Shown: piece after piece, positions 22,685 to 64,000 of the stretch
Numbering within the stretch: position 1 is the stretch's first letter
How the letters are laid out: each line of letters opens with the position of its first letter
NCBI RefSeq assembly: GCF_901827185.1
Contig: NZ_LR594671.1
Location: 3,720,001 to 3,784,000, forward strand
Origin: Variovorax sp. PBL-E5
GTDB lineage: Bacteria > Pseudomonadota > Gammaproteobacteria > Burkholderiales > Burkholderiaceae_C
DNA length: 64,000 nucleotides
Direction of reading: 5' to 3'
Program-made: the position numbers and the translations under genes
The notes under the pieces: model-generated
Database searches by the model: none
The model's input: only the letters and a program-made list of their open reading frames with translations
What the model was told of the DNA's origin: nothing

Positions 22685-23608
22685 TCAGGAGACGAACTGG
22701 TAGTACAGGTTCTGCGGATGCTTCGCCTGCGCGAAGAAGAACCAGCGTTCGGCCACCAGGCCCGGTATCTGCACCGCCAGCGCCAGCACGAAGACGAGGG
22801 TCGACTGCGAACTCATCGCCCACAGCAGCAGCACGCAGGGCAGCGCGAAGCCCAGCACGATGAAGGCCAGCTTGACCTGCTTCAACGCCGTACGGCTGGC
22901 GCCGTGGAAGAACTCGCGCGTGTTGAACGAACCGGCCGACATGCCCATCGATTTCTGCATCAGCTTCGGCGCCCGGATGCCGGTGGCCGACTGCAGCGTG
23001 GAGCGCGGCGTCAGCGCGGCATTACGGCGCAAGGCCAGCGTGCGCGTGAACCACGCGATCGCCGTGACCGCGAACGCGCACGGTGCCGTGAGCTGCAGCA
23101 GCGCGTGCTCGCCCATCAGCGCCGCCAGCGCGCTCGCGAGGATCAGGCCCGACGAGAGACCGATGAGCGCGAAGTTGACCAGCGTCAGCGGCTGCGCCCA
23201 CTCCTGGATGAAGCGCAGGCAGGCATAGATCATCGCGGTGCAGTACCAGAGCAAGGCACCCACGACGAGCGCGGCCAGCGGCAGCGCCATGCTGTCGATG
23301 CCGTTGCGCAGCGCCAGCCACCACAGCGCGACCACCGCGATGAAGGCCGGCAGCACGATCACCTCGCGCGACAGCCACGAGGTACGCCACATCATCGCGG
23401 CGCGCCAGGCGCGCTCGGGCCGGCCCAGGTGGCCGAATGACGCACCGAGCCCGACCAGCAGCATGACCTCGGCGACGATCAGCGCAGTGCTCGCGAAGGC
23501 CGGCGCGAGCGACAGGCCTGCCAGCACGGCCAATGCGAGCGTGACGACCAGCCCCTGCGCGGCACCGGCAATCGTGGTGAAGATGACGACCGAGAATGCC
23601 GGGTTCAT
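22685..23608 (-). CDS. soeC: SoeC/DmsC-type membrane anchor of a molybdenum oxidoreductase
   Basis: A 307-residue polytopic membrane protein of the DmsC family with about eight or nine transmembrane helices (for example MNPAFSVVIFTTIAGAAQGL and LPLAALVVGALLWYCTAMIY). It would pass electrons from the FeS subunit to quinone. Its ATG at 23608 overlaps the soeB stop by 4 bases. A DMSO-reductase anchor is the alternative; the neighbourhood (xsc-pta, which releases sulfite) favours the sulfite-oxidising Soe complex. Confidence 0.75.
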   Translation of the reverse strand: MNPAFSVVIFTTIAGAAQGLVVTLALAVLAGLSLAPAFASTALIVAEVMLLVGLGASFGHLGRPERAWRAAMMWRTSWLSREVIVLPAFIAVVALWWLALRNGIDSMALPLAALVVGALLWYCTAMIYACLRFIQEWAQPLTLVNFALIGLSSGLILASALAALMGEHALLQLTAPCAFAVTAIAWFTRTLALRRNAALTPRSTLQSATGIRAPKLMQKSMGMSAGSFNTREFFHGASRTALKQVKLAFIVLGFALPCVLLLWAMSSQSTLVFVLALAVQIPGLVAERWFFFAQAKHPQNLYYQFVS

Positions 23609-24459
23609 GACAGCCCACCCAGCTTCGGGTCGATCTTGCTCGCGCCGCCCGCGATGTCGGTGACGCGCCGCGGCAGGTACTGGTTGGCCGGGCTGGTTTC
23701 CCATTCGGGCATCAGCGAATAGCCGCCGCGTTCGCGGATCGCGATCGAGACTTCCGAATTCGGATCCTTGACGTCGCCGAACAGCCGCGCGCCGGTCGGG
23801 CAGGCCTTCACGCAGGCGGGCTTGCGGTCTTCCTTGGGCAGCTTCTCGTCGTAGATGCGGTCCACGCACAGCGTGCACTTGGTCATCACCTGGCGCTCTT
23901 CGTCGAGCTCGCGCGCGCCGTAGGGACAGGCCCAGGCGCAGTACTTGCAGCCGATGCACTTGTCGTAGTCGACCAGCACGATGCCGTCTTCCTTGCGCTT
24001 GTAGCTGGCACCGGTCGGACAGACGGGCACGCACGGCGGGTCTTCGCAGTGCAGACAGCTCTTCGGGAAGTGGATGGTGTCGGTGCCCGGGAAGGCGCCG
24101 GCCTCGTAGGTCTGCACGCGGTTGAAGAAGGTGCCGGTCGGGTTGGCGCCATAGGGTTGCTCGTCGGCCAGGGGGCCGGCGCTGCCCGATGTGTTCCATT
24201 GCTTGCACGAGGTCACGCAGGCATGGCAGCCGACGCAGACGTTGAGGTCGATCACGAGGGCGAGCTGCTTGGCGAGCGTCTCGCCCTGCTCCGCGCGCAC
24301 GCTGGCATGACTCCCTCTCCCTCTGGGAGAGGGCTGGGGTGAGGGCACCCCAGCCTTCATGGCGATCGCACCCGATCCCCCGCCGCCGCCCTCACCCCAG
24401 CCCTCTCCCGCAGGGAGAGGGAGCGAAGCACCCATCAGGTCTTTGAGCCATTGAATCAT
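23605..24459 (-). CDS. soeB: SoeB-type four-cluster ferredoxin subunit with an in-frame repeat insertion
   Basis: A 284-residue FeS subunit with four cysteine groups for [4Fe-4S] clusters: CVGCHACVTSC (about residue 73), CLHCEDPPCVPVC, CIGCKYCAWAC and CTLC with a late KPACVKACP. It relays electrons from the molybdenum subunit to the anchor. Residues about 12-50 (Gly-, Pro- and Arg-rich) are encoded by a palindromic repeat pair at 24311-24424. Without them the length is about 246, closer to the family norm. Start ATG at 24459 overlaps the soeA stop by 4 bases. Confidence 0.85.
   Translation of the reverse strand: MIQWLKDLMGASLPLPAGEGWGEGGGGGSGAIAMKAGVPSPQPSPRGRGSHASVRAEQGETLAKQLALVIDLNVCVGCHACVTSCKQWNTSGSAGPLADEQPYGANPTGTFFNRVQTYEAGAFPGTDTIHFPKSCLHCEDPPCVPVCPTGASYKRKEDGIVLVDYDKCIGCKYCAWACPYGARELDEERQVMTKCTLCVDRIYDEKLPKEDRKPACVKACPTGARLFGDVKDPNSEVSIAIRERGGYSLMPEWETSPANQYLPRRVTDIAGGASKIDPKLGGLS
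24311..24424. repeat. Palindromic repeat R2, two inverted copies inside soeB
   Basis: Two facing copies of a REP-like sequence, CTCCCTCTCCCTCTGGGAGAG with GGCTGGGGTGAGGGC and its inverse GCCCTCACCCCAGCCCTCTC. They are separated by about 40 bp and inserted in frame near the 5' end of soeB. Related copies lie at about 42430-42466 and 43212-43252. Confidence 0.85.
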
Positions 24460-27395
24460 TTCCTGCGTCCCGCAAAGTAGGTCAACACGCTCGCCGCCTT
24501 GCCCAGCACGCCGGGCACGACCGGCATACTGGCGAATTGCGGAAAGCTCTCGGCCGGTTCCTCCGGCTCGGCCGGCCGGATGCGCACGCGCACGTCGTAC
24601 CAGCCGGCCTGCCCGGTGACGGGGTCCGAGTTGCTGATGGTCTTGCCGCCCTTCGGCCCGTCGAAGGGCAACTCCTCCGAGATCAGGTGGTTGAGCAGGA
24701 AGCCCTTGCGCGCTTCGTCCGCGCCGGGCGCGAGCTGCCAGGCGCCGTCGGCCTTGCCGATCGCGTTCCAGGTCCACACCGTGCCGGGCTCGACGGCCTC
24801 GCTGTAGCGCAGCATGCAGCGCACCTGGCCCCACTGGCTCTCGACCCAGCACCAGCCGCCGTCGGCGATGCCGGCCGCCTTGGCGGTGAGCGGGTTCACA
24901 TGCAGGTAGTTGTGGCTGTGGATCTGCCGCAGCCACGCGTTCTGCGAATCCCAGGAGTGGTACATCGCCATCGGCCGCTGCGTGATGGCATTCAGCGGGT
25001 AGGCGGCGAGATCGGTCGCATCTTCCTCGAGCGGCGGATACCAGAAGGGCAGCGGATCGAAGTAGGTGTCGATGCGCGCGCGCAGCTCGTCGGGCGGCTG
25101 GCGGCCCGCGCTCTTGCCCTGCGCCGCGAGGCGGAAGCTCTGCAAGGTGTCGGAGTACAGCGCGAGCTGGACCACGTCGTTCTTCTGGCGCCAGCCCTTG
25201 TCCTTGGCGAAGTCCAGGTACTCGCGGTTCCAGTTGCGCATGTAGTGCATCGTCTCCGGCATGTGGTACTGGAAGACGCAGTTGTTCTTCGCGTAGGCCT
25301 CCCACTGTTTCGGATTGGGCGCGCCGCGCAGGTGCTCGGTGCCGTCCTTGCCGCGCCAGCCCATCAGGAAGCCGATGCCGGGTGCGGGCTGGAAGTTGAC
25401 GACGAAGTCGGGATAGTCGGCGAACTTGCGGCCGCCCTCGGGCGTGGTGAAGGCCGGAAACTTGAGTCGCGATGCGAGCTCGATCAGCACTTCCTGGAAG
25501 GGCTTGCACTGCCCGGTCGGCGGCAGCACCGGGATGCGCACCGAATCGACCGGCCCGTCGAACTCGGAGATCGGCCGGTCGAGCATGCTCATCACGTCGT
25601 GGCGCTCGAGGTAGGTCGTGTCGGGCAGCACGAGGTCGGCGAAGGCCACGGTCTCGCTCTGGAAGGCATCGCACACCACGATGAAGGGGATCAGGTGTTC
25701 GCCCTTCTCGTCCTTGCGGTTGAGCATCTCGCGCACCGCCGAGGTGTTCATGCTCGAGTTCCAGGCCATGTTGGCCATGAAGATCAGGAGCGTGTCGATG
25801 CGGTAGGGATCGCCCTTCACCGCGTTGGTGATGACGTTGTGCATCAGCCCGTGCGCCGACAGCGGATGCTCCCACGAGAACGCATGGTCGATGCGGATCG
25901 GCGAGCCATCGGGATTGATCGCCAGCTCCTCCGGACTGGCCGGGAAGCCCAGCGGCGCCGCGTTGAGCGGCGTGTTGGGCTGGATCATCTCGGGCGAGTT
26001 GAAGGCGCGGTAGTTCGGCACGATGTGGCGCGGGTACGGCGCCTTGTGGCGGAAACCGCCGGGCGCGTCGATGGTGCCGAGCACGCTCATCAGCACCGCC
26101 AGCGCGCGGATCGTCTGGAAGCCGTTGGAGTGCGCCGCGAGCCCACGCATCGCATGGAAGGCGACCGGGCGCCCCTGCGTCGTCGGATGTACCTTGCCCC
26201 AGGCATCGGTCCAGGGAATCGGCAGCTCGAAGGCCTGTTTCAGCGCGGTCTCGCCCATCTCGCGCGCGAGCTTGCGGATGCGATCGGCATGGATGCCGGT
26301 GATGGCCTGCGCCCACTCGGGCGTGCAGCTGGCGACACGGTCGCGCAGCAGCTGGAACGAAGGCGCGACGCGCGTGCCGTCGGCCAGCGTGTAGTGGCCT
26401 TCGAGCGCGGGATCGCAGCCGTCCGCGATGCCTTCGGGATAGGCCGGCTTCACCGTGCCATCGGCCTTGTCCCAGATCAGCTTGTTGTGCGGCTCGCGGC
26501 CATCGCCCGGCGGCCCGCGATCGGGGTCGAAGGCGAACAGGCCCTGGCGCTCGCAATCGTCGAGCACCACCAGCTGGGGCGCGTTGGTGAAGCGCTTGAG
26601 GAAGGCATGGTCGACCAGGTCGCTCGCGATCAGCTCGTGCAGCAGCGCCATGAAGAGCGCGCCGTCGGTGCCCGGCTTGATGGGGATCCATTCGTCGGCG
26701 ATGGCCGAGTAGCCGGTGCGCACCGGGTTGATCGAGATGAAGCGCCCGCCCTGGCGCTTGAACTTGCTGAGCGCGATCTTCAGCGGGTTGCTGTGGTGGT
26801 CTTCGGCGGTGCCTATCATCACGAACAGCTTGGCGTGATCGAGGTCGGGGCCGCCGAATTCCCAGAAGCTGCCGCCGATGGTGTAGATCATTCCCGCGGC
26901 CATGTTGACCGAGCAGAAGCCGCCATGCGCCGCATAGTTGGGCGTGCCGAACTGGCGCGCGAAGAGGCCCGTGAGCGCCTGCATCTGGTCGCGGCCGGTG
27001 AAGAGCGCGAACTTCTTCGGATCGGTTGCGCGCAGCTTGCCCAGGCGCTCGGCGAGCATGTCGAAGGCGCGCTCCCAGCTGATGGGCTCGAACTCGCCGG
27101 CGCCGCGCTCGGTGCCCGGCTTGCGCAGCAGCGGCTGCGTGAGCCGCGCGGGCGAGATCTGCTTCATGATCCCCGACGAACCCTTGGCGCAGATCACGCC
27201 CTTGTTCAGCGGATGGTCGGGATTGCCGTCGATGTAGCGCACCTCGGGGCCGTTGTCGCCCTCGCGCAGGTGCACGCGGATGCCGCAGCGGCAGGCGCAC
27301 ATGTAGCAGGTGGTGGTCTTGACCTCGGTGCCCGCGGTCGGCGTGGGCGAAGCCAGCGGATCGTGGACGGGCTCGCGCGAAAGAAAATCGAACAC
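24456..27395 (-). CDS. soeA: SoeA-type molybdopterin oxidoreductase (probable sulfite dehydrogenase)
   Basis: A 979-residue catalytic subunit of the DMSO-reductase family. The N-terminal [4Fe-4S] site is C30-x2-C33-x3-C37 (TTTCYMCACRCGI) with a later Cys in GVICAKG. The Mo-bis-MGD domains follow, and the dinucleotide-binding domain is C-terminal. No twin-arginine signal is present, as expected for the cytoplasmic SoeABC complex that oxidises sulfite to sulfate. I prefer the GTG at 27395, with AAGGG 7 nt upstream; a GTG at 27428 is possible. Thiosulfate, polysulfide or DMSO reduction cannot be excluded from sequence alone; linkage to xsc-pta is the main argument. Confidence 0.8.
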   Translation of the reverse strand: MFDFLSREPVHDPLASPTPTAGTEVKTTTCYMCACRCGIRVHLREGDNGPEVRYIDGNPDHPLNKGVICAKGSSGIMKQISPARLTQPLLRKPGTERGAGEFEPISWERAFDMLAERLGKLRATDPKKFALFTGRDQMQALTGLFARQFGTPNYAAHGGFCSVNMAAGMIYTIGGSFWEFGGPDLDHAKLFVMIGTAEDHHSNPLKIALSKFKRQGGRFISINPVRTGYSAIADEWIPIKPGTDGALFMALLHELIASDLVDHAFLKRFTNAPQLVVLDDCERQGLFAFDPDRGPPGDGREPHNKLIWDKADGTVKPAYPEGIADGCDPALEGHYTLADGTRVAPSFQLLRDRVASCTPEWAQAITGIHADRIRKLAREMGETALKQAFELPIPWTDAWGKVHPTTQGRPVAFHAMRGLAAHSNGFQTIRALAVLMSVLGTIDAPGGFRHKAPYPRHIVPNYRAFNSPEMIQPNTPLNAAPLGFPASPEELAINPDGSPIRIDHAFSWEHPLSAHGLMHNVITNAVKGDPYRIDTLLIFMANMAWNSSMNTSAVREMLNRKDEKGEHLIPFIVVCDAFQSETVAFADLVLPDTTYLERHDVMSMLDRPISEFDGPVDSVRIPVLPPTGQCKPFQEVLIELASRLKFPAFTTPEGGRKFADYPDFVVNFQPAPGIGFLMGWRGKDGTEHLRGAPNPKQWEAYAKNNCVFQYHMPETMHYMRNWNREYLDFAKDKGWRQKNDVVQLALYSDTLQSFRLAAQGKSAGRQPPDELRARIDTYFDPLPFWYPPLEEDATDLAAYPLNAITQRPMAMYHSWDSQNAWLRQIHSHNYLHVNPLTAKAAGIADGGWCWVESQWGQVRCMLRYSEAVEPGTVWTWNAIGKADGAWQLAPGADEARKGFLLNHLISEELPFDGPKGGKTISNSDPVTGQAGWYDVRVRIRPAEPEEPAESFPQFASMPVVPGVLGKAASVLTYFAGRRK

Positions 27396-27510: not shown

Positions 27511-28434
27511 ATGATCGACAAAACCAATCAGTGGATTCCGCCGAGGCTGCGTCTGAATCTGCGCCACCTGGAAGTGTTCGTCGCCACGGCGCGTGGCGGC
27601 AGCACGCGCGCCGCGGCCGACCGCATCGCGCGCTCGCAGTCGGCCGCCAGCACCGCGCTGGCCGATCTCGAAGGCTCGCTCGGCGTCGAGCTGTTCGACC
27701 GCATCGGGCGCCGGCTGCAGCTCAACGAGAACGGGCGCGCGCTGCTGCCCCGCGCCCAGGCCCTGGTCGAGCAGGCGGCCGAGCTGCAGGCCCTCTTCAG
27801 CGAGGAGCATGCGGCGCCGCTGCGGGTCGCGGCCAGCTTCACGATCGGCGAATACCTCCTGCCCGAACTGATCTCGGAATGGACGCTGCGCCATCCGCAG
27901 AGCCAGGTCCAGCTGCGCATCGGCAACACCAGCGAGGTGATCGAGGCGGTGGCCGGCTTCGACGTCGACGTCGGCTTCATCGAAGGCCCGCAGACGCATC
28001 CGGAAGTCACCGTGCGCCCCTGGCTCGACGACGAGCTCATCGTCGTCGCCGCGCCAGGCCATCCGCTGGCCGGCCGCACCGCCACGCTGCGCCAGTTGGC
28101 CGAGCTCACCTGGGTGATGCGAGAGCACGGCTCCGGCACGCGCCAAGTCGCCGACGCCTGGCTGATCCGCAACCTCGCCCACGTGCGCGTGGGCTTCGAG
28201 CTCGGCAGCACCGAGGCGATCAAGCGCGTGGTGGCGGCGGGGGGCGGATTGAGCTGCCTGTCACGTCACGCGGTGGCGCAGAGCATCGACGACGGACGGC
28301 TGGTCGAGCTGCGCACCCGGCTGCCGCGGGCGGTGCGCACGCTGGCGATCGTGTTGCATACCGAGAAGCGGCTGGGGCGGGCGACCACGGATTTTCTGAA
28401 GCATTGCAATGACGCGGTGCCGTCCGGTGCGTAG
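27511..28434 (+). CDS. LysR-family regulator, divergent from soeABC
   Basis: A 307-residue LysR protein with the helix-turn-helix in LRHLEVFVATARGGSTRAAA and a full effector domain (LRVAASFTIGEYLLPELIS, the CysB/CbbR-like subgroup style). It is transcribed away from soeA; the 115-bp gap (27396-27510) must contain both promoters. By position it is the likely regulator of the sulfite-oxidising operon, perhaps responding to sulfite or a sulfonate intermediate (inference). Confidence 0.88.
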   Translation: MIDKTNQWIPPRLRLNLRHLEVFVATARGGSTRAAADRIARSQSAASTALADLEGSLGVELFDRIGRRLQLNENGRALLPRAQALVEQAAELQALFSEEHAAPLRVAASFTIGEYLLPELISEWTLRHPQSQVQLRIGNTSEVIEAVAGFDVDVGFIEGPQTHPEVTVRPWLDDELIVVAAPGHPLAGRTATLRQLAELTWVMREHGSGTRQVADAWLIRNLAHVRVGFELGSTEAIKRVVAAGGGLSCLSRHAVAQSIDDGRLVELRTRLPRAVRTLAIVLHTEKRLGRATTDFLKHCNDAVPSGA

Positions 28435-28473
28435 AGACTGCCCAGTATGCCGCCTTGTATTTTCGACCGGCGA

Positions 28474-29076
28474 CTACGGCGCCGGATAGGACGTCGGCAC
28501 GAGCCGCCATACATCCTGATTCCCGCACGCTCCCACAACAATGAACGCGACGGGATTGCCGCCCTGATAACCCAGGCACATGCCTGTCGCCACGTTCGTG
28601 ATCATCCCTTCGAACTGGGTGTTGACGAGTGTCTGGGTACCACCGGTCCGCAACAGTCTCCACGTCGCGCGCGCCCCGCCGGGGGGAAATGGGACGTTCG
28701 TTTGAGACAGATCGCTCCACACCGGAGAGCCCCATGCGCTGTCGGAACCCAGATTGAGCCATTGCCTGGGTGAACTGTCGTACCCGGTTGCTGCGAGGAT
28801 TCGAAACGGCGCGGAGCCGTCGACTTGGGGGATATAGGCTTTGTCTTCGACGGCGTGACGAACATAGAACTTCTGAAGAATGTCCGAATCGTTGCACGTC
28901 GCGGTGCGATAGGTCGAGACGCGAGGGCCCGTCTGCATGCGGACGCACAGGCCATTGAGCTTGTTGACGATATGGAATGGCGTGGTGTTCAGATCGGGTG
29001 CCGCCAACGCCAGGAGCGGGGTCGACAGGCTCATCACCATGAAGGCCAGCCGATTCAAAAGGGATCCGAGTTTCAT
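28474..29076 (-). CDS. Secreted beta-trefoil-like protein (paralogue 1)
   Basis: A 200-residue exported protein with signal peptide MKLGSLLNRLAFMVMSLSTP and cleavage near LALA. The mature part has ricin-like features: PFHIVNKLNGLCVRMQTG, TYRTATCNDSDILQKFYV, SPRQWLNLG and a closing NQDVWRLVPT, with paired cysteines. GGAGG lies 9 nt before the ATG. It is the second gene of a tandem pair with 29091-29918, 14 nt apart. No known binding partner; a carbohydrate-binding or secreted-lectin role is only a guess. Confidence 0.7.
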   Translation of the reverse strand: MKLGSLLNRLAFMVMSLSTPLLALAAPDLNTTPFHIVNKLNGLCVRMQTGPRVSTYRTATCNDSDILQKFYVRHAVEDKAYIPQVDGSAPFRILAATGYDSSPRQWLNLGSDSAWGSPVWSDLSQTNVPFPPGGARATWRLLRTGGTQTLVNTQFEGMITNVATGMCLGYQGGNPVAFIVVGACGNQDVWRLVPTSYPAP

Positions 29077-29090
29077 GACGATGCGCCTCC

Positions 29091-29918
29091 TTATTGCTGC
29101 GACGAAGGCGTGAAGTAGGTCGTCGGCTCGAGCCGCCATACGTCCTCGTTCTGGCATGTACCCGAGACAATCTGAGTTCCCATTGCCGGGTTGTGATCTT
29201 GATAACTCAGGCAATTGTGCGTGGACGCATTGAAGATCAGTCCCTCGAATTGCGTATTGACCAGGTTTTGCGTGTCCAGTTTTCGCGTGAGGTACCAGTA
29301 TGCGTTTCCACCCTCACCTCCAAGGGCAGGAAACTGAATATCCGTGTGGAGGTTGTAAACGAAAGAACCCGGTGAGGCATCCGCATTCAAGTTGTACCAC
29401 TGCCGTGGCGTGAACTCGATGCTTCCTGCCTCGAGGATGCGAACGGGCTCGCTTCTGCCTTCCAATTGAGGAACATAGGGCGTGTCTGCGGCGTGGTCGA
29501 AGAAGTAGAACTTCTGAAAAAAATCAGTGTCGCTGCACGTCGCGGTCCGAAACAGCAGGGCATCCGTGCCCTTGTATCCGTCTTCGTATTGCTGGATGCA
29601 AAAGCCGCGCAGCTTGTTGACGATGCGAAACGGCGTTGTATGGAGATCGGGCCGGAACTGCGCTGAAGCGAAGGCAGGAACGGCTGCGGCGATGACGCAA
29701 AGCAGGAGTCGACCCAAGTCCCGCTGGGTCAGCGCTGCGCGGGCTGCTCGAACGCAACGGCCTGATGCGCGACACACCGCCTCCATGAACCTGCCCGCCT
29801 GCGCCCTGCGGCGCGGTCGAAGAGGCGGATGGTGTTGGGATGCGGTGTGCGGATCGATGCTGCGCGGAACGCGCGCAGCCCATGCTCGCAGCGATGCGAG
29901 CCGCGATGGACTTCTCAT
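29091..29918 (-). CDS. Secreted beta-trefoil-like protein (paralogue 2)
   Basis: The homologous partner of 28474-29076: TTPFRIVNKLRGFCIQQYED, FRTATCSDTDFFQKFYFF, TPRQWYNLNAD and NEDVWRLEPTTY align directly. The start is ambiguous. The ATG at 29918 has GGGAG 9 nt upstream but gives 275 residues with the hydrophobic signal (LLLCVIAAAVPAFASA) beginning only after about residue 65. The ATG at 29786 gives 231 residues with a more normal signal but a poor ribosome-binding site. Function unknown. Confidence 0.65.
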   Translation of the reverse strand: MRSPSRLASLRAWAARVPRSIDPHTASQHHPPLRPRRRAQAGRFMEAVCRASGRCVRAARAALTQRDLGRLLLCVIAAAVPAFASAQFRPDLHTTPFRIVNKLRGFCIQQYEDGYKGTDALLFRTATCSDTDFFQKFYFFDHAADTPYVPQLEGRSEPVRILEAGSIEFTPRQWYNLNADASPGSFVYNLHTDIQFPALGGEGGNAYWYLTRKLDTQNLVNTQFEGLIFNASTHNCLSYQDHNPAMGTQIVSGTCQNEDVWRLEPTTYFTPSSQQ

Positions 29919-30119
29919 AGGTGATAGCTCCCTGTTGTGGCCTGTTTTTTTTGTGGACAGCGCAATTGCATTGCATGCGAATCCGGCGCCAATATAGGTG
30001 GACCGGACTCTGACTACAAGCAGGGAGAAAGTTCTCAAAGGATCCGCAGATGCGCGGACCTCGCCGTCCCATTCAACGGCCGCGGATGCGGGCTTGCAAG
30101 CCGTCGACCGCGTGCAACG

Positions 30120-32884: not shown

Positions 32885-32899
32885 GGAACCGATGGTTCC
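32885..32899. promoter_or_regulatory. IclR-type operator dyad GGAAC-N5-GTTCC at xsc/iclR
   Basis: GGAACCGATGGTTCC, a perfect 15-bp dyad 47 bp upstream of the xsc start in the xsc/iclR divergent gap. The same dyad with the same spacing occurs at 55250-55264 in front of another iclR gene and a GMC oxidoreductase. IclR regulators typically bind dyads of this size, so this is a likely operator for the adjacent regulator. Confidence 0.6.
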
Positions 32900-32986: not shown

Positions 32987-33006
32987 AAACAACTATGATC
33001 CATCCC

Positions 33007-33834: not shown

Positions 33835-33835
33835 A

Positions 33836-34816: not shown

Positions 34817-34823
34817 GCCCGCC

Positions 34824-38603: not shown

Positions 38604-38625
38604 CCGACTAGAGAGTCCCCTAACT

Positions 38626-55230: not shown

Positions 55231-55249
55231 ACGGGTAAACCTCTAAAGT

Positions 55250-55264
55250 GGAACATTGTGTTCC
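55250..55264. promoter_or_regulatory. IclR-type operator dyad GGAAC-N5-GTTCC at iclR/GMC
   Basis: GGAACATTGTGTTCC, 20 bp upstream of the iclR start and 73 bp from the GMC start. It has the same half-sites and the same 5-bp spacing as 32885-32899 in front of xsc. A further GTTCC half-site lies near 55314-55318. Confidence 0.6.
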
Positions 55265-55336: not shown

Positions 55337-56962
55337 ATGAGTGAAGCGTTCGACTACATCGTCGTGGGTGCCGGTTCCGCCGGCTGCGTGCTGGCCGGCC
55401 GGCTGAGCGAAGACCCGGGCACGCGCGTGTTGTTGCTGGAGGCCGGGCCGGCCGACCGCTCGCTGTGGATCCACCTGCCGATCGGCTATGGCAAGACGAT
55501 GTGGAGCGCCACCTACAACTGGCGCTTCGAGACCGACCCCGATCCGAACATGAACGGCCGCCGCATCTACTGGCCGCGCGGCAAGACGCTGGGCGGCTCG
55601 AGCGCGATCAATGGCCTGATCTACATCCGCGGCCAGCGCGAGGACTACGACCACTGGGCCGCGCTCGGCAATGCGGGCTGGGGCTATGACGACGTGCTGC
55701 CCTACTTCGTCAAGTCCGAAGGCAACCAGCGCGGCAGCGATGCCTTCCATGGCGGCGCCGGCCCGCTGAAGGTCTCGGACATCAGCGCGAAGCACGAGCT
55801 GATCGAGGCCTTCATCGACGGCGCGCAGCAGATCGGCGTGCCACGCACCGGCGATTTCAACGGCGCCGCGCAGGAAGGCGCCGGCTACTACCAGCTCACC
55901 ACCTTCAAGGGCTGGCGCTGCAGCACGGCCAAGGCCTACCTCGTGCCGGCGCGGCACCGGCCCAACCTGCGCATCGAGACCGATGCCTTCGCGGCCGGCC
56001 TCGTGTTCGAGGGCCGGCGCGCGGTCGGCGTGCGCTATCGACAGGGCGGCGAGATGAAGACCGCACGCTGCAATGCCGAGGTGCTGCTCGCGGCCGGTTC
56101 GATCCAGTCGCCGCAGTTGCTGCAGCTCTCGGGCATCGGGCCGCGTGCACTGCTCGAGGCGCGCGGCGTCGCGGTGCTGCACGACCTGCCGGGCGTCGGC
56201 GAGAACCTGCAGGACCATCTGCAGATCCGGCTCGGCTACGAGTGCACCAAGCCGATCACCACCAACGACCAGCTCAATTCGTGGGTCGGCCAGGCGAAGC
56301 TCGGCATCGAGTGGCTGCTGCACCGCACCGGCGCGCTGGCGGTCGGCATCAACCAGGGCGGCTGCTTCATGCGCGCACTCAAGGATGCCGAGGGGCGACC
56401 CGTGGCCGCGACGCCCGACATCCAGTTCCATGTCGCCACGCTGTCGGCCGACATGGCCGGCGGCAAGGTGCATCCGTACTCGGGCTTCACCTTCTCGGTC
56501 TGCCAGCTCAGGCCGGAGTCGCGCGGCCACATACGCATCCGCTCGCTCGACCCTTTCGAGCCGCCCGAGATGCAGCCCAACTACCTGTCGACCGAGCTCG
56601 ACCGCGCGACCGCCGTCGCGGGTATGAAAGCCGCACGCGCCATCGCCGAGTCGCCGGCCATGCGGCCCTATGTGAAGCGCGAGGTCAAGCCCGGCCCGGG
56701 CGCGGCCAGCGATGCCGAGCTGCTCGCCTTCTGCCGCGACAACGGCGCCACGATCTTCCATCCCACCGGCACCTGCCGCATGGGCAGCGACCCCCTGGCC
56801 GTGGTCGACGCGCGGCTGCGCGTGCACGGCATCGGCGGCCTGCGCGTGATCGACTGCTCGGCGATGCCGACGCTGGTCTCGGGCAACACCAACGCGCCGG
56901 CCGTGATGATGGCCGAGAAGGCCGTCGACATGATTCGCGAGGACGCCGCCAGACCGCACTGA
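55337..56962 (+). CDS. GMC-family FAD oxidoreductase (isethionate dehydrogenase candidate, IseJ-like)
   Basis: A 541-residue choline dehydrogenase-like flavoprotein. The FAD-binding loop is DYIVVGAGSAGCVLAGRL, then VLLLEAGP; GMC signature 1 is in RGKTLGGSSAINGLIYIRG and signature 2 in GSIQSPQLLQLSGIGP; the C-terminal catalytic part has HPTGTCRMG and VSGNTNAPAVM. It oxidises an alcohol to an aldehyde. The trio IclR, GMC and MFS next to taurine and near xsc genes recalls the isethionate genes of Cupriavidus, which would yield sulfoacetaldehyde; choline or another alcohol remains possible. Confidence 0.85.
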   Translation: MSEAFDYIVVGAGSAGCVLAGRLSEDPGTRVLLLEAGPADRSLWIHLPIGYGKTMWSATYNWRFETDPDPNMNGRRIYWPRGKTLGGSSAINGLIYIRGQREDYDHWAALGNAGWGYDDVLPYFVKSEGNQRGSDAFHGGAGPLKVSDISAKHELIEAFIDGAQQIGVPRTGDFNGAAQEGAGYYQLTTFKGWRCSTAKAYLVPARHRPNLRIETDAFAAGLVFEGRRAVGVRYRQGGEMKTARCNAEVLLAAGSIQSPQLLQLSGIGPRALLEARGVAVLHDLPGVGENLQDHLQIRLGYECTKPITTNDQLNSWVGQAKLGIEWLLHRTGALAVGINQGGCFMRALKDAEGRPVAATPDIQFHVATLSADMAGGKVHPYSGFTFSVCQLRPESRGHIRIRSLDPFEPPEMQPNYLSTELDRATAVAGMKAARAIAESPAMRPYVKREVKPGPGAASDAELLAFCRDNGATIFHPTGTCRMGSDPLAVVDARLRVHGIGGLRVIDCSAMPTLVSGNTNAPAVMMAEKAVDMIREDAARPH

Positions 56963-57022: not shown

Positions 57023-58357
57023 ATGAGTGCAATTGACGAGAAGGTGATTCGCAGGGTCGTCATGTCGGCGATCGTGGGCGCCACCATCGAGTGGTACGAC
57101 TTCTTCCTCTACGGGGTGGTCGCGGGCATCGTCTTCAACAAGCTCTACTTTCCGGGCAGCGACCCGGTGGTGTCGACGCTGCTGGCCTACACCACCTTCG
57201 CGGTCGGCTTCGTGACGCGGCCGCTGGGCGGCGTGATCTTCGGCCACTTCGGCGACCGCATCGGCCGCAAGAGCATGCTGATCATCACGCTGATGATCAT
57301 GGGCATCTCGACCTTGCTGATCGGCCTGCTGCCGACCTATGCGCAGATCGGCGTCGCGGCGCCGCTTCTGCTTTTGCTGCTGCGCGTCGCGCAGGGCATC
57401 GGCCTGGGCGGCGAATGGGGCGGCGCGGTGCTGATGGCCTACGAGTACGCGCCGAAAGGCAAGCGCGGCTTCTACGCCTCACTGCCGCAGATCGGCCTGG
57501 CCGTCGGGCTGTGCATGGCCTCCGGCGTGGTGGCGCTGCTGTCCTCGCTGCTGACCGACGCGCAGTTCCTGGCCTGGGGCTGGCGCATCGCCTTCCTGCT
57601 GTCGGGCGTGATGGTGGTGGTCGGCATGTACATCCGCCTGCGCGTGCAGGAGACGCCGGAGTTCTCGGCGCTGAAGGCGCGCAACGCCGAATCGCGCATT
57701 CCATTCATGGACATGCTGCGGCGCTACCCCGGCAACATCCTGAAGGGCATGGGCGCGCGCTACATCGACGGTGTCTTCTTCAACGTGTTCGCGGTGTTCT
57801 CGATCAACTACCTCACCAGCACGCTCAAGATCAGCCGCACCGATTCGCTGCTGGGCGTGATGGCGGCGGCGGTGGTGATGTGCTTTGCCATTCCCTACTT
57901 CGGCCGCATGTCGGACCGGCATGGTCGCCCGAAGGTCTATATGTGGGGCTCGATCATCACCGCGCTGTCGGCCTTCCCCGGCTTCTGGCTGATGACCCAC
58001 AGCGGCGGCAACGTGCTCCTGATCTGGCTGGCGATCGTCGTGCCCTTCGGCATCCTGTACGCGGCGGTCTATGCGCCGGAGGCCGCGCTCTTCTGCGATC
58101 TCTTCGATGCCAAGGTGCGCTACACCGGCATCTCCTTCGTCTACCAGTTCTCGGGCATCTTCGCCTCGGGCATCACGCCGATCATCGCGACCGCACTGCT
58201 CAAGTCGGGCGGCGGCGATCCGTGGCTGATCTGCTGGTACGTGGTGTTCGCGGGCGCGGTGTCGGCGGTGTGCGCGTGGTGGATCGGGCGTTCGCCCGAA
58301 CCCGACGAGATCGGCCTTGCGGCGCCTTCGCTGCAGGCGGGCCGCGGCGGCCGGTAG
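57023..58357 (+). CDS. MFS metabolite:H+ symporter (isethionate uptake candidate, IseU-like)
   Basis: A 444-residue, 12-helix permease of the MHS group. Marks: ATIEWYDFFLYGVVAGIVF at TM1, RPLGGVIFGHFGDRIGRKS between TM2 and TM3, and QGIGLGGEWGGAVLMAYEYA. It follows the GMC gene by 60 bp and is likely co-transcribed. Family members import organic acids and zwitterions such as shikimate or betaines; a sulfonate substrate is inferred from the locus. The gap to tauC (46 bp, convergent) is unremarkable. Confidence 0.87.
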   Translation: MSAIDEKVIRRVVMSAIVGATIEWYDFFLYGVVAGIVFNKLYFPGSDPVVSTLLAYTTFAVGFVTRPLGGVIFGHFGDRIGRKSMLIITLMIMGISTLLIGLLPTYAQIGVAAPLLLLLLRVAQGIGLGGEWGGAVLMAYEYAPKGKRGFYASLPQIGLAVGLCMASGVVALLSSLLTDAQFLAWGWRIAFLLSGVMVVVGMYIRLRVQETPEFSALKARNAESRIPFMDMLRRYPGNILKGMGARYIDGVFFNVFAVFSINYLTSTLKISRTDSLLGVMAAAVVMCFAIPYFGRMSDRHGRPKVYMWGSIITALSAFPGFWLMTHSGGNVLLIWLAIVVPFGILYAAVYAPEAALFCDLFDAKVRYTGISFVYQFSGIFASGITPIIATALLKSGGGDPWLICWYVVFAGAVSAVCAWWIGRSPEPDEIGLAAPSLQAGRGGR

Positions 58358-58403: not shown

Positions 58404-59261
58404 TTACATCCGACCCTTCCACGGCACCAGCCGCCGCTCGACCCAGCGCATGAGCAGGTCGAACATGTAGGCCACGACACCGATCACGATGATGCCCATG
58501 ATGACGATGTCGGTGCGCAGGAAGTTCGATGCATTGAGCACCATCTGCCCGAGGCCGACATTGGCCGCCACCATCTCGGCGGCGACCAGCGTGGTCCAGC
58601 CGAAGCCGATGGCGATGCGCATGCCGATCAGGATGTCGGGCAGCGCCGAGGGCAGGATCACGTGGCGGATCACCTGCATGTAGCTCGCGCCCATCGAGTA
58701 GGCCGCGTTGATCTGCTCCTGCGAGGCGCTGCGCATGCCCGCGCGCGCGGCCAGCGCCAGCGGCGCGAAGCAGCTCAGGAAGATCAGCAGCACCTTGGGC
58801 ACTTCGTCGATGCCGAACCAGATGATGATCAGCGGCAGGTAGGCCAATGGCGGCAGCGGGCGGTAGAACTCCAGCGGCGGATCGAAGATGCCGCGCACCA
58901 CGCGGCTCATGCCCATCGCGATGCCCAGCGGGATCGCCGTCAGGCAGGCCAGGATAAAGGCCGAGAACACGCGCAGCATGCTGGCCGTGAAGTGCTGCGC
59001 CAGCGGCTTGTCGTTGGCCTGGCCGGTCAGGTAGTCGTAGAACTGCTGGAACACCGCCTGCGGCGAGGGCAGGAAGAGCGGCTTGACCAGGCCCAGGTTG
59101 GTGACCAGGAACCACAGCACCAGCAGCGCGATCACCGTGACGACGCTGATCGTGGCGCTGTTGCCGGCGCCCGGCACCTTGAACGAGCTGGTCTTGAGCT
59201 GCGCGGGAGCGCCTGCGGCCGGCGGGACCGCGATGACGGCGGGTTGTGCGACCTCAGACAT
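58404..59261 (-). CDS. tauC: Taurine ABC transporter permease
   Basis: A 285-residue inner-membrane permease of the SsuC/TauC family with about six helices and the EAA loop ([20 protein letters not shown]). The conserved [20 protein letters not shown] segment is typical of taurine and sulfonate permeases. Its ATG overlaps the tauB stop by 8 nt (ATGTCTGA). With TauA and TauB it would import taurine. Confidence 0.88.
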
Positions 59262-60066
59262 GATCGGCCTCCGCAGTGGCGCGAGCCGCAGGCTCGCGGT
59301 GGTGGATGATGGAAAGCACTTCTTCGCGCATGCGGATGAACTCCGGCTCCGATTTGACGCGGCGCGCGTCGCCGTGCGAGAGGAACTGGCGCGAGAACGG
59401 CACGTTGTCGTAGACGTGCGAGATGCGTCCGGGGCTGGGGCTCATCACGATCAGGCGTGTCGCGAGGAACAGGGCCTCTTCGACCGAGTGGGTGATGAAG
59501 AACACCATCTTGTGGGTCGCCGACCAGGCGCGCAGCAGGATCTCCTGCACGGTCTCGCGGGTGAACGCATCGAGCGCGCCCATCGGCTCGTCCATCAGCA
59601 GCACCGCCGGATCGGAGGCGAGCGCGCGCGCAATGCCCACGCGCTGCTGCATGCCGCCGGAGAGCTCGTAGACGGCGTTGTCGCCGTACTTCTCGAGGCC
59701 CACCAGCGCCAGCTTCTCGGCCGCGACGCGGTCGCGCCGGGCCCTGTCCACGCCCGTCAGGCGCAGGCCGAGCGCAACGTTGTCGCGCACGTTGAGCCAG
59801 GGCATCAGCGCGTGCTTCTGGAACACGACCCCGCGGTCCGCGCCCGGGCCGACCACTGGCTTGCCGTCGAGCAGGATGTCGCCGGTCGAGGCCGGCAGAA
59901 AGCCGGCGATGCAATTGAGCAGCGTCGTCTTGCCGCAGCCCGAGGCGCCGAGCGCGACGACGAAATCGCCGTCGCGCATCGTCAGGTTCACCGGCGCGAG
60001 CGCTTGCAGCGTGCCGCCCTTCACCGCGTAGTTGACCGTCAATTCACGGATGTCCAATGTTGGCAT
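59254..60066 (-). CDS. tauB: Taurine ABC transporter ATP-binding protein
   Basis: A 270-residue ATPase: Walker [10 protein letters not shown] (about residue 40), Q-loop in [20 protein letters not shown], signature LSGGMQQRV, Walker [14 protein letters not shown]-loop FITHSVEEA. The ATG at 60066 ([11 protein letters not shown]) has GGAG 7 nt upstream; an earlier in-frame start would read from the R1 repeat side. It lies between tauA and tauC; the tauA-tauB gap of 158 bp is filled by R1. Confidence 0.9.
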
Positions 60067-60217: not shown

Positions 60218-60224
60218 AGTACGT

Positions 60225-61226
60225 TTATTTGCCCATTGCCTTCTGCACGTAGGTCGTGGTCACGAAGTCCGCGTAGCTCGGCTTGACTTCCTGGATCCGG
60301 TTCTGTTCCTTGAGGAACGCCGCGGTGTTGGTCATCGCCTTCGCGGCGCCGCCGCCCAGCCAGGCGGGCGAAGCCTGCTCGGCCAGCGTCGGGAAGCGGT
60401 AGAGCGCCATCGCCGCGGGCACGTTGGCGGCATCCGCCTTGGTCCACTTGGCGACCGCCTTGACCTGCGGCGAATCGGCCGTCCACTTCGCGGTGTTGCT
60501 GCGGTATTCCTCGTCGGCCTTGGCCAGCGCCTTGACCAGCGCAACCATGAAACCTTCGTTGGCCGCGGCCCATTTCGAGCTGACGACCATGCCGTCGAAG
60601 GTCGGATAGCCCTTCTTGCCGATCGAGCCCGAGGTCGCGATGACCTTGCCGTTGGCCTTGATCTTGGTCAGCACCGGATCCCAGATGAATGCGGCATCGA
60701 TATCGCCGCGCTCCCATGCGGCCGCGACTTCCGGCGGACGCAGGTTCATCACGTTCACGGTCTTGGCATCGACGCCCTCGGCCTTCATGTCGACCATCAG
60801 CTGGTAGTGCGAGGTCGAGACGAAGGGCGTGGCGACCTTCTTGCCCGTGAGGTCCTTGACGCTGTTGATGTTCGAGCCGTTGCGCGCAACCAGCGCCTCG
60901 GCGTCGGCGATGTCGTCCAGGATCCAGAACAGCTTGATGTCCTGGCCCTGGGTCGCCGCCGCGGTGATGCCGGCCGAGCCGACCTCGCCGATCTGGACGT
61001 CGCCCGAGGCCATCGCGCGGATCACGTCGCCGCCGCCGCCGAACATGCGCCAGTTGATCTTGTAGCCGGTCGCCTTCTCGAGTTCGCCCGATTCCATGAC
61101 GATGCGGTACGGGTCCAGCATGTCCTGGTGGGCGATCGTGACCTCCTTGGTCTGGGCGAATGCGGCACCGCAGAACATCGCGGCGGCCAGGGCGGCGTAT
61201 CGAAGCATGAGACGAGGCACGTTCAT
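60225..61226 (-). CDS. tauA: Taurine-binding periplasmic protein
   Basis: A 333-residue precursor of the SsuA/TauA/NMT1 family. Signal peptide [20 protein letters not shown]; mature part [59 protein letters not shown] and [19 protein letters not shown], which resemble TauA rather than SsuA. AAGGAG lies 6 nt before the ATG at 61226. First gene of tauABC; its promoter must lie in 61227-61386, where I see CTGG-containing motifs but no certain operator. Confidence 0.9.
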
Positions 61227-61386: not shown

Positions 61387-62922
61387 TCAATGCGGCCGGC
61401 TGGCAGGCGCCCGCTTCTCGCCGCGCGCCTGCGCCAGTTCCTCCACCGCCAGTCCCAGCGCCCGGATCCCCGCCGGAATCTGCGCCGAAGCGATGGACGA
61501 CAGGCGCAGCCGGAAGAAGGGACACGGATACGGCGGCTTGGCGAAGAACACATCCCCCGCCTCGATCAGCACCCCGTGGCTGCGCGCCATCAGCGACAGC
61601 TCCGCCGCATCGACCCAGGTCGGCGCCTGCACCCACAGCGAGGCGCCGCCCTGCGGCATCGTGAATTCGAAATCGGGCAGGTGATCGCGCAGCGCCTGCG
61701 CGGCCAGCGCGAGGCGCTCCTGCATCGCATGGTTGACGCGCCGCGCATGCGACTCGTGATGGCCGAGCGACAGGAAGAGCGCATAGGCATGCTGCAGGAA
61801 GGCGCTCGGATGCCGCACCATCGCATGCCGGATCACGCGCAGTTCCTTGATCAGCGCGCGCGGCGCCACGATGAAGCCCAGCCGCAGCGCCGGCGACAGG
61901 CTCTTGGACACCGAGCCGACGTAGATCACGCGGCCGGTCTTGTCCAGGCTCTTCAACGCCGGCATGGGCGCGCCTTCATAAAGATTCTCGGCCTCGTAGT
62001 CGTCCTCGATGATCACGAAGTCCTGCAGCTCGGCCTTGCGCAGCAGCCACTGGCGGCGCTCGAGGCTCAGCGTGGCGGTGGTCGGGCTCTGGTGCGAGGG
62101 CGTGACGAACAGATAGTCGGCGGCCGGCAGCGCATCGACCACCAGGCCCTCCTCGTCGACGTCGATCTCGACCCACTTGGGCTTGCGCAGCGCGAAGCTG
62201 TTGCGCGCATGCGGATGGCCGGGCTCTTCCAGCCCGACACGGGTGTTCTCGTCGAACAGCGCATCGGCCAGCAGGTAGCAGGCATGCTGCGCGCCGAGGG
62301 TGACGAGGATCTCTTCCTTGAGCGCGAACACGCCGCGCTTGGGCAGGAGGCGCGTGCGGATCTGCTCGATGAGGTCGGGCACGTCGTCGGTCTCGAAGTC
62401 GGGCGTCCAGTGCGGCAGCTGCGAGCGCGCGAGGCTGCGCGCGCAGCATTCGCGGAAGTCCTCGGTGGGGAAAAGCTGCGGATCGTAGGTGCCGTAGACG
62501 AAGGGATAGGGATAGTCGCGCCAGCGCTCGGGCTTGGACAGCGTGGGCCGATCGAGCAGCGAGCGCCGCACGCGCGCCGACCAGTCCGGCGGCAGGCCCG
62601 ACTGGCCGCTGCGGCCCACCAGCGGCTCGGCCAGCGCGGCCGACAGCGGCCGCGCATTGGCCGCCACGAACACGCCGCTGCGCGGGCGCGCTTCGAGAAA
62701 GCCTTCGTCCATCAGCTGCAGGTAGGCGGAGGTCACGGTATTGCGGCTCAGGCCGAGCAGCGCCGCGAGTTCGCGCGACGAAGGCAGCGGCGCACCGGAG
62801 GTCAGGCGGTCTTCGAGGATGGCCTGGACCACCGCGGCGCGCAGGCGGCCCTGCAGCGGCAGGCCGGGTTGGTCGGGCAGCGCGAAGAGCTGGGCCCATT
62901 GGGTCGATCGCGGATTCGGCAT
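61387..62922 (-). CDS. tauR: MocR-type regulator of taurine genes (TauR-like)
   Basis: A 511-residue fusion of a GntR winged helix (about 20-90: LQGRLRAAVVQAILEDRLTS, then LGLSRNTVTSAYLQLMDEGF) with an aminotransferase-like PLP domain (about 150-490). The PLP lysine is in YVGSVSKSLSPALRLGF. TauR regulators of taurine degradation have this architecture. It is upstream of tauABC on the same strand and divergent from tauXY. The 118-bp gap 62923-63040 has the inverted pair CCAGT/ACTGG near 62940-62958 and CTGGCCCTA downstream, possible binding sites. Confidence 0.87.
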   Translation of the reverse strand: MPNPRSTQWAQLFALPDQPGLPLQGRLRAAVVQAILEDRLTSGAPLPSSRELAALLGLSRNTVTSAYLQLMDEGFLEARPRSGVFVAANARPLSAALAEPLVGRSGQSGLPPDWSARVRRSLLDRPTLSKPERWRDYPYPFVYGTYDPQLFPTEDFRECCARSLARSQLPHWTPDFETDDVPDLIEQIRTRLLPKRGVFALKEEILVTLGAQHACYLLADALFDENTRVGLEEPGHPHARNSFALRKPKWVEIDVDEEGLVVDALPAADYLFVTPSHQSPTTATLSLERRQWLLRKAELQDFVIIEDDYEAENLYEGAPMPALKSLDKTGRVIYVGSVSKSLSPALRLGFIVAPRALIKELRVIRHAMVRHPSAFLQHAYALFLSLGHHESHARRVNHAMQERLALAAQALRDHLPDFEFTMPQGGASLWVQAPTWVDAAELSLMARSHGVLIEAGDVFFAKPPYPCPFFRLRLSSIASAQIPAGIRALGLAVEELAQARGEKRAPASRPH

Positions 62923-63040
62923 GGTGCGGGAAGTTTAGAACCAGTCGGGGCCACTGGCTCGGTCGAATCCCCGCATCTGGCCCTACCGCTCCACGCGACG
63001 GCTCCCTACCCTTGACCCCATTCATCTGAGGAGTTTCCGC

Positions 63041-63445
63041 GTGACCGCATCCACCACCGCCCCCGTGACCACCGCCACCCTGGCCGCCTTCAGCGACGCC
63101 TGGAACCGCCACGACATCGACGCGCTGATGAGCTTCATGAGCGAGGACTGCGTGTTCCAGACCGCCGGCGGCGCCGAGGCCTGCGGCGCGCGGATCACCG
63201 GCACCGCCGCCGTGCGCCGCGCCTTCGCCGCCGCCTGGGAAGCCGTGCCCGATGCGCAATGGCGCAACGGCCAGCACTTCGTTCACGGCGACTTCGGCAC
63301 CTCGCAGTGGACCTTCACCGGCACCGCCGCGGACGGCAGCCGCATCGAGACCGACGGCATCGACGTCTTCACCTTCAAGGACGGCAAGATCCAGCTCAAG
63401 AACGTGTTCCGCAAGGCACGCCCCAACCTGCCCGCCGCCAAGTAG
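63041..63445 (+). CDS. tauX: NTF2/SnoaL-fold protein, probable taurine dehydrogenase small subunit
   Basis: A 134-residue NTF2-like protein (FSDAWNRHDIDALMSFMSED, FGTSQWTFTGTAADGSRIET). It starts with GTG at 63041, with GAGGAG 7 nt upstream. TauX of taurine dehydrogenase is a small protein of this fold encoded before the flavoprotein TauY. Here a DAO-family flavoprotein gene follows 18 nt later and tauR-tauABC are divergent, so the assignment is mainly contextual. Confidence 0.78.
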   Translation: MTASTTAPVTTATLAAFSDAWNRHDIDALMSFMSEDCVFQTAGGAEACGARITGTAAVRRAFAAAWEAVPDAQWRNGQHFVHGDFGTSQWTFTGTAADGSRIETDGIDVFTFKDGKIQLKNVFRKARPNLPAAK

Positions 63446-63463
63446 TCCATTCCGGGAGCGTTC

Positions 63464-64000
63464 ATGACCACGACCGGCACCGCGCAGTTCGCCAGCGGAC
63501 CCGCCTCGCCCGCGCGCAAGCCCTACGACCCGCGCTACGACCCGCTGGTGGCGCCCGACCCCGGCGCCGGACGCGCCTACGCGCCCACCTGGTGGGTGGC
63601 CAGCGCCGGCGCGCCGCCGGAAGACGACGGCCCGGTGATGCGCGACATCGATGTCGACGTGGCCATCATCGGCTCGGGCGCGACCGGCATGTCGACCGCG
63701 CTCTACCTCGCGCAGGAGCACGGCATCGCCGCGACGGTGCTGGAGGCCAACCAGGCCTCCTGGGGCTGCTCCAGCCGCAGCGGCGGCCAGGGCCAGAACG
63801 CGAGCGGGCGCCTCAAGCGCTCGCAGTGGATCGCGCGCTGGGGCATCGACGTCGCGCGCCGGCTCGATGCCGAGATCCGCGGCGGCTTCGAGAACTTCAG
63901 GCACCTGACGACACAGATCGATTGCGACGCCTACGACGGCGGCCACCTCTTCCTTGCGCACCGGCCCGAGAAGCTCGCGGGCCTGGAGAGCGAAGCGCGC
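63464..64000 (+). CDS. tauY: DAO-family FAD oxidoreductase, probable taurine dehydrogenase large subunit (cut by window edge)
   Basis: The first 179 residues. A flexible N-terminus with WWVASAGAPPEDDGPVMRDI leads to the FAD-binding Rossmann motif VAIIGSGATGMSTALYLAQE and the second motif SRSGGQGQNASGRLKRSQWI, typical of DAO-family amine oxidoreductases. With TauX it would deaminate taurine to sulfoacetaldehyde, feeding electrons to the respiratory chain. The start ATG at 63464 has GGGAG 8 nt upstream. The rest lies beyond the window. Confidence 0.8.
   Translation, partial: MTTTGTAQFASGPASPARKPYDPRYDPLVAPDPGAGRAYAPTWWVASAGAPPEDDGPVMRDIDVDVAIIGSGATGMSTALYLAQEHGIAATVLEANQASWGCSSRSGGQGQNASGRLKRSQWIARWGIDVARRLDAEIRGGFENFRHLTTQIDCDAYDGGHLFLAHRPEKLAGLESEAR

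Follow-up and report, generated by a model that had tools for sequence, protein, structure and literature searches.

A C2-sulfonate island of Variovorax sp. PBL-E5 and its xsc-linked CobS/CobT-like gene pair, a probable remodelling machine

Introduction

Why should a gene cluster for the breakdown of C2-sulfonates include genes that look as if they belong to cobalamin synthesis? Sulfoacetaldehyde acetyltransferase (Xsc) is the central C–S-cleaving enzyme of sulfonate turnover, and in Variovorax sp. PBL-E5 its gene lies in a sulfonate island together with a pair of genes resembling cobS and cobT. The region studied is a stretch of 64,000 nt of contig NZ_LR594671.1 (positions 3,720,001–3,784,000; hereafter the window), from a genome of 7.09 Mb in four contigs that is rated 100% complete. 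An earlier reading of the sequence (the original prediction) described positions 22685–64000 as a single island in which taurine, sulfoacetate and isethionate branches meet at Xsc; gene calls, Pfam and NCBIfam confirmed the gene families and their order. Its list omitted the CobS/CobT-like pair (33836–36545), which is the most novel component of the island. The observations given below make it reasonably probable that this pair is a remodelling machine of the MoxR/VWA type, with Xsc as its most likely client.

CobS/CobT-Like Genes Accompany xsc

The xsc gene (31027–32838, − strand) is followed in the map by a gene for an IclR-family regulator (IclR1; 32995–33834, + strand; PF01614/PF09339) and then by the pair, also on the + strand. 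The first gene (33836–34816) encodes a CobS-like AAA+ ATPase, a conserved partner of xsc, and the second (34824–36545) a CobT-like VWA protein that carries a DxSxS MIDAS motif and is diverged in its N-terminal part. The combination of a Walker-type ATPase gene with a MIDAS-bearing VWA gene is what defines MoxR/VWA remodelling pairs at the gene level, and here it stands next to xsc. The best named match of the CobS-like protein, at 90% identity, is from an uncultured Variovorax.

In a search of 80 genomes, 59 of the 61 that carry xsc also had a CobS-like gene, and none of the 19 congeners without xsc did, although kinship among genomes makes these counts, and those that follow, non-independent. 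No more than 5 kb separates the gene from xsc in 57 of these carriers; in the other two it is 29 kb away (G149) or on another contig (G261). Named genomes were scanned with a CobS alignment, and the best 80 of more than 580 loci were considered. Xsc was found in the fetched flank of 29 of 35 CobS-like loci, a rate that is conditional on CobS because the loci were picked by it, and in 0 of the 45 other loci of these 80, mostly alphaproteobacterial true CobS. The samples from the order, from relatives and from plasmids were picked by Xsc. For five of the remaining six CobS-like loci, Xsc is encoded at another place in the same genome, at a distance of about 20 kb in Modicisalibacter and of apparently 12 kb in Oceanisphaera; the sixth, a Janthinobacterium bin in whose genome no Xsc was found, is the only carrier examined that lacks it.

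The arrangement of the two loci is not fixed. Among 33 linked loci, spanning Burkholderiales, Rhodocyclales, Pseudomonas, Oceanimonas, Photobacterium and others, 16 have CobST and xsc in divergent, 12 in convergent and 5 in co-directional orientation, and the distance between them ranges from 70 bases to 8.8 kb. Ten plasmid records carry an Xsc of about 80% identity or more; seven have a CobS-like gene at most 6 kb away, and on the three Rhodococcus records no CobS-like gene was found. No paper linking CobST to Xsc appeared among the matches listed in a literature search of open-access PMC papers.

In a tree of Xsc sequences, one fully supported clade of 58 rows contains all 55 rows with CobST and three without, while none of the 24 rows outside it has CobST in its locus. 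For outlying rows, absence was judged on the fetched locus; presence in L015, L146 and L148–L151 was judged on the contig or genome. G089 and G097 give two rows each, and sequences with stops or less than 90% coverage, as well as the duplicates L145 and L147, were dropped. The CobS tree, from which L092 and L115 were dropped for internal stops, places the 43 rows without Xsc in one supported group apart from the CobS-like rows; deep forks among the latter are weak.

Some further observations concern these loci. Comamonas testosteroni ATCC 11996 has cobST in L093; another strain of that species, KF-1, grows on taurine according to parts of PMC3746432. A contig assigned to Streptomyces diacarni (L097) carries a Betaproteobacteria-like xsc-IclR-cobST cluster, either by contamination or by transfer. 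In L071, L082 and L090, where xsc is not adjacent, frames that look by eye like TRAP transporters follow the CobST-like genes.

The Pair Is Distinct from Cobaltochelatase

The likeness to cobaltochelatase CobNST lies in the gene pair itself, with AAA+ CobS and VWA CobT homologues. Unlike CobNST, the pair is linked to xsc, falls below both curated model cut-offs, and occurs in a genome where no match to CobN (PF02514) was found. All six CobS-like proteins examined score below the cut-off of TIGR01650 and all four true CobS proteins above it (window protein, 522.7 bits against 558.55). With TIGR01651 all five CobT-like proteins fall below and all four true CobT above, and the window protein matches in its C-terminal part only (318.6 bits against 759). 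Among carriers of the CobST-like pair, a search for CobN gave no match in 9 of 23, this genome included, and none in 12 of 30 of another set, several of which are drafts. Conversely, CobN is present in 5 of 12 genomes without the CobS-like gene and in 4 of 10 congeners tested that lack xsc.

The two subunits have not diverged equally. The CobS-like motor is about 65–71% identical to true CobS, whereas for the CobT-like adaptor identity to the CobT of true loci is mostly 31–37%, with partial matches reaching 44%, as would be expected if the motor had kept its job while the adaptor changed its client. Across the aligned rows, the Walker A stretch and the DxSxS motif of the MIDAS vary little or not at all. 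In a profile search of the PDB, solved CobS and CobT structures were the top matches, and the motor scored 548 bits with CobS, 37 with CbbQ and 25 with NorQ. Taken on their sequences and gene context, the CobS/CobT-like proteins are not part of a cobaltochelatase.

The closest functional parallel is offered by the Rubisco activase CbbQO and by NorQD, in which an AAA+ motor and a VWA adaptor with a conserved MIDAS are encoded beside the gene of their client, as set out in parts of PMC4660213 and PMC9976466. The same sources, with sections of PMC13036017, describe a hexameric motor, a VWA adaptor that binds a carboxylate of the client, and ATP-driven remodelling. Here, in contrast, the motor is of the CobS type and the proposed client is a thiamine diphosphate enzyme.

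The Island and Its Recurrence

The core of the island comprises xsc, whose product scores 1076 bits with TIGR03457 (cut-off 676), and pta (phosphate acetyltransferase; 30120–31034, − strand; PF01515). At lower coordinates lie genes named from family and place as a SoeABC-type, probable sulfite dehydrogenase: a molybdopterin oxidoreductase (SoeA; 24456–27395, − strand; PF00384/PF04879/PF01568), a 4Fe-4S subunit (SoeB; 23605–24300, − strand; PF13247) and a membrane anchor of the DmsC family (SoeC; 22685–23608, − strand; PF04976, 64 bits). For SoeA, no NCBIfam model was above its cut-off among the best 25 matches listed. A LysR regulator gene (27511–28434, + strand; PF03466/PF00126) is divergent from soeA. 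An orthologue of SoeA occurs in 47 of 50 xsc-bearing genomes of the genus; outside the genus, it was not found in 8 of 9 CobST carriers.

The sulfoacetate module follows the CobST-like pair on the + strand. It consists of a regulator (IclR2; 36665–37477; PF01614/PF09339), a Bug/TctC solute-binding protein (37504–38469; PF03401), the acylating sulfoacetaldehyde dehydrogenase SauS (38497–40077, with 38740 as another possible start; NF047625, 735.7 bits, cut-off 600) and an AMP-binding CoA ligase (40074–41594; PF00501), and is followed by a TauE-type sulfite exporter (41591–42385; PF01925, 90.8 bits). The ligase is putatively SauT, going by family and neighbourhood: no model named SauT was among the best 25 of its 108 NCBIfam matches, and it adjoins SauS in other xsc loci too (e.g., L026, L034 and L042).

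The taurine module occupies the right end of the window. TauA, the taurine-binding protein (60225–61226, − strand), exceeds its equivalog cut-off (TIGR01729, 354 bits against 304), as Xsc and SauS do theirs. The putative permease TauC (58404–59261, − strand; PRK10160, 296.6 bits against 342) and ATPase TauB (59254–60066, − strand; PRK11248, 322.7 against 357) fall below the E. coli-type cut-offs, yet these are their best family matches. A MocR-type regulator (61387–62922, − strand; PF00155 and PF00392) is probably TauR by its context; its best curated name is PdxR (336 bits, over a cut-off of 320). TauXY is defined as an NTF2-like small and a DAO-type large subunit beside tauABC, and by Pfam and gene order this is what is found here: a TauX-like NTF2/SnoaL protein (63041–63445, + strand; PF12680, 86 bits) and a TauY-like flavoprotein (63464–64906, + strand; PF01266, 204 bits for the full frame). 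The prediction had placed TauXY within the 41 kb stretch; both genes do start inside it, but tauY runs past the window end at 64000.

The families and the route through sulfoacetaldehyde, acetyl phosphate and sulfite are those of the known tau, sau and ise systems of C2-sulfonate dissimilation, as treated in sections of PMC5320631 and PMC6453916. What differs here is that three branches share one island, which has three IclR regulators; two of these stand next to copies of one palindrome. By contrast, iseJ (SPO2359) and xsc (SPO3561) of Ruegeria pomeroyi are far apart, to judge from the locus tags given in part of PMC9870897.

Such modules had been expected to lie usually in separate places. 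In this clade the opposite holds, and the comparison with related genomes that the original prediction had called for showed SauS and GMC flavoprotein genes linked to xsc in most xsc-bearing congeners. Xsc was found at E ≤ 1e-150 in 30 of 250 genomes of the order, and in 59 of 198 relatives, 50 of which, PBL-E5 included, belong to this genus. Among these 50, 44 have SauS at most 35 kb from xsc and 40 have GMC at most 50 kb from it, both being on one side of xsc (within 50 kb) in 39. TauY is within 50 kb in 21, further off in 9 and on another contig in 20, and 19 genomes have SauS, GMC and TauY together on the same side, no more than 50 kb from xsc. The link to xsc is therefore firm for the sulfoacetate and GMC modules and looser for the taurine module.

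Similar linkage is seen beyond Variovorax. About 25 kb of plasmid pNK83 of Caballeronia sp. NK8 hold SauT/SauS-like genes, TauX/TauY, xsc-pta, GMC-MFS and a TauR-like gene. Burkholderia arboris has TauX, TauY, GMC-MFS, SoeABC and xsc, with no SauS in the stretch read, and the linkage recurs in whole or part in Cupriavidus campinensis. S. meliloti pSymA has an uninterrupted run of genes for IclR, GMC (split in two in the annotation), MFS and Xsc. The three-branch island is thus a recurrent arrangement, not a singularity.

A Palindrome Shared by xsc and the GMC Branch

The third branch begins with a regulator gene (IclR3; 54418–55230, − strand; PF01614/PF09339), followed on the + strand by genes for a GMC flavoprotein, a probable isethionate dehydrogenase resembling IseJ (55337–56962; PF00732/PF05199), and an IseU-like MFS transporter of the MHS type (57023–58357; TIGR00883, 418 bits, cut-off 443). 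No IseJ-named model was among the GMC protein's NCBIfam matches listed, and its assignment comes from family and neighbourhood.

A palindrome, GGAAC-N5-GTTCC, was first seen as an invariant element in aligned xsc/iclR1 intergenic regions of ten loci. Perfect copies occur exactly twice in the window, between xsc and iclR1 (32885–32899) and between iclR3 and the GMC gene (55250–55264). With up to one mismatch there are six copies, against 1.4 expected, the other four being at 25217, 32073, 44247 and 49676. The first copy is a candidate IclR operator common to xsc and iclR1-cobS-cobT. No version with a 6 nt spacer was found in the window, the spacer being 5 nt, and the Rhodobacter TauR motif CTGGACYTAA had no match, at up to one mismatch, in the window or the downstream locus.

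Across 2.83 Mb of sequence, a set enriched for these loci, 38 perfect copies were found (one place, L086/L145, being counted twice), and for 35 of them a gene for Xsc, GMC, IclR or CobS starts less than 400 bases further on. Allowing one mismatch, the palindrome precedes 34 of 58 xsc genes whose products are at least 76% identical and 2 of 24 outlying ones. It also precedes 14 of 15 genes for GMC proteins of at least 70% identity. Corresponding counts were 0 of 20 for SauS, 2 of 31 for TauX, 0 of 9 for SoeA and 0 of 13 for TauA, and shuffled sequence gave 0–2%. The palindrome ties the close GMC branch to the regulation of Xsc and is the best new support for reading that branch as isethionate utilisation.

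The GMC protein might instead act on another alcohol, choline-like or polyol, which is unlikely though the strongest of the alternatives weighed here. Its best NCBIfam name is indeed the choline dehydrogenase subfamily PRK02106 (653 bits over a cut-off of 605), but it scores well under the betA equivalog cut-off (552.7 against 732), and the consecutive genes in S. meliloti, the proximity to xsc in four-fifths of the genus genomes and the palindrome that it shares with xsc all speak against such a substrate. Convergence on Xsc, as originally proposed for three branches, is accordingly graded: it is well supported for taurine and sulfoacetate, where curated models match, and probable for isethionate, where gene context and the shared palindrome speak for it. 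The island predicts growth on all three sulfonates and one shared IclR operator.

Xsc as the Likely Client

Taurine (through TauABC and TauXY), sulfoacetate (through the Bug protein, the SauT-like ligase and SauS) and probably isethionate (through the MFS transporter and the GMC dehydrogenase) would each be converted to sulfoacetaldehyde, which Xsc would cleave to sulfite and acetyl phosphate. Pta would then form acetyl-CoA, and sulfite would either undergo oxidation by the SoeABC-type enzyme or leave the cell through TauE. In the proposed model, the CobS-like protein is the motor and the CobT-like protein an adaptor that would use its MIDAS site to hold on to Xsc, much as CbbQO handles Rubisco.

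A different client, the taurine dehydrogenase TauXY, whose maturation the pair might serve, is improbable. All 59 CobS-bearing genomes do carry TauY, and one locus (L075) has CobST beside TauXY with Xsc about 20 kb off. Against this, TauY was missing at E ≤ 1e-80 from 8 of 30 named carriers, every one of which has Xsc, and five congeners with TauY but no xsc (G255, G262, G275, G284 and G285) lack the CobS-like gene.

Slightly less probable still is that Xsc and CobST stand together through shared descent of a single cluster and are functionally uncoupled. Gene order is largely the same within the genus, and a single Xsc clade corresponds to a single CobS-like group, as this explanation would have it. 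It fits poorly with the three orientations and variable gaps of the 33 linked loci from many groups, with the joint presence or absence of the two genes inside the genus, and with B. arboris, where xsc and CobST are 3.7 kb apart and the palindrome stands before each. That the pair still acts in cobalamin synthesis and is merely parked beside xsc is very unlikely: the high identity to true CobS and its first place in the PDB search are outweighed by the carriers in which no CobN was found, the absence of the gene from 19 congeners lacking xsc even though CobN occurs in 4 of the 10 tested, the scores below both cut-offs and the linkage to xsc in different orientations.

Several observations weigh against Xsc as the client or against the regulatory link. 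Xsc works without CobST elsewhere, as in the 24 outlying rows of the tree, whose fetched loci have none; one of them is the second Xsc-like gene of this very genome. Within the CobST-bearing clade, G366 and G133 (searched genome-wide) and Rhodococcus (plasmid records) are without the pair. Four acidic positions on Xsc mark that clade and were considered as a client-side signature, but the three clade members without the pair have them as well. TauXY, too, is found in most carriers and retains some chance of being served, and half of the eight carriers without TauY are metagenome bins or uncultured. More distant GMC homologues (53–70% identity) have the palindrome, at up to one mismatch, in 0 of 15 cases. 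A second candidate signature, the C-terminal motif KYKDYV of Xsc, was not specific to the CobST-bearing group.

If Xsc is the client, work on the enzyme in those bacteria has overlooked a partner that services one large clade of it. Some cobalamin-looking genes would really be sulfonate genes, such as one annotated 'cobalt chelatase' in Caballeronia NK8, and CobS-type motors would join CbbQO and NorQD as re-targetable enzyme activases.

A Possible Role in Cofactor Exchange

Xsc uses thiamine diphosphate and releases sulfite beside this cofactor of its own. We know of no remodelling machine of this sort for a thiamine diphosphate enzyme. According to a part of PMC8839250, sulfite cleaves thiamine. 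A CobST-like machine might open the inactivated Xsc and eject the broken cofactor so that a fresh one could load; exchange of inactivated thiamine diphosphate is our guess at the action on Xsc. By analogy, the pair could be an Xsc repairase, which with its CobS-type motor would do for a thiamine diphosphate enzyme what Rubisco activase does for Rubisco, an idea that we hold as speculative.

Thiazole-synthesis genes are found near some xsc genes. ThiG occurs in 6 of 61 loci with Xsc of at least 76% identity, against 0 of 91 other loci. Pairs of thiS-thiG lie among or near tau/xsc genes at L067:5571–6629, L089:7080–8124 and L155:115–1108. The interval between tauX and xsc holds thiG-thiS and a YeiH-type exporter gene in Aromatoleum; in P. 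fluorescens PS833, two aminotransferase-type genes upstream of cobST flank thiS-thiG; and on a Rhodococcus plasmid thiG-thiS are 11 kb from xsc. Actinobacterial TauR regulons, as presented in part of PMC5320631, also include thiG. These pairs would be the supply side of the same cofactor problem. In L048, L049 and L111, two of which come from the same genus and one from Castellaniella, ThiG is accompanied by ThiS- or ThiO-like genes and may belong to an ordinary thiamine operon. Given the cleavage of thiamine by sulfite and the thiazole genes near xsc, cofactor repair is a reasonable guess and no more.

Other Genes of the Island and Its Surroundings

Between TauE and IclR3 lie genes for a GntR regulator, a polysaccharide deacetylase, an SDR, an FAH and a Bug protein, and an RHS/C39 protein. 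The 43.2–53.2 kb block appears to be an unrelated insertion: in three other loci (G290, G303 and G335) TauE and IclR3 stand almost side by side. Spacing between SauS and GMC ranges from 3.3 to 16.3 kb (median 7.4 kb, 39 cases), so other genomes have inserts too. The RHS-repeat protein with a peptidase C39 domain is encoded at 48004–53226, and a 250-base part of its gene is 80% alike to sequence at genome position 3913101. Two related-looking short frames on the − strand lie between pta and the LysR gene (28440–30040); three frames scanned in this interval gave no Pfam match.

Beyond the window, tauXY is followed by oppABCDF-type genes, an amidohydrolase and a CobW-type GTPase (L004:5101–13386; genome positions 3785101–3793386). 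The same kinds (opp, COG1574 and COG0523) are members of the predicted TauR regulons of Comamonadaceae in the relevant section of PMC5320631; that section names no cobST, and the main text has no words starting with 'cob'. Burkholderia OK233, Paraburkholderia BL9I2N2 and Caballeronia also have amidohydrolase and CobW genes in the neighbourhood of xsc. This suggests a putative fourth feeder, which would free taurine from an N-acyl form.

In genomes without TauXY, similar-looking proteins are encoded beside xsc-cobST (L087:5088–6215 and L089:8304–9437). The latter is remotely like PhnW-type aminotransferases (95 bits), making these proteins candidates for a new taurine aminotransferase.

The second Xsc-like gene of PBL-E5 (L063:10342–12057; G000:C1:3925341–3927056) lies near a gene for a GMC protein of 42% identity and sulfonate-type ABC genes. 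Its product is a distant paralogue, with 46% identity to Xsc and a TIGR03457 score of 665.7 bits against the cut-off of 676.4.

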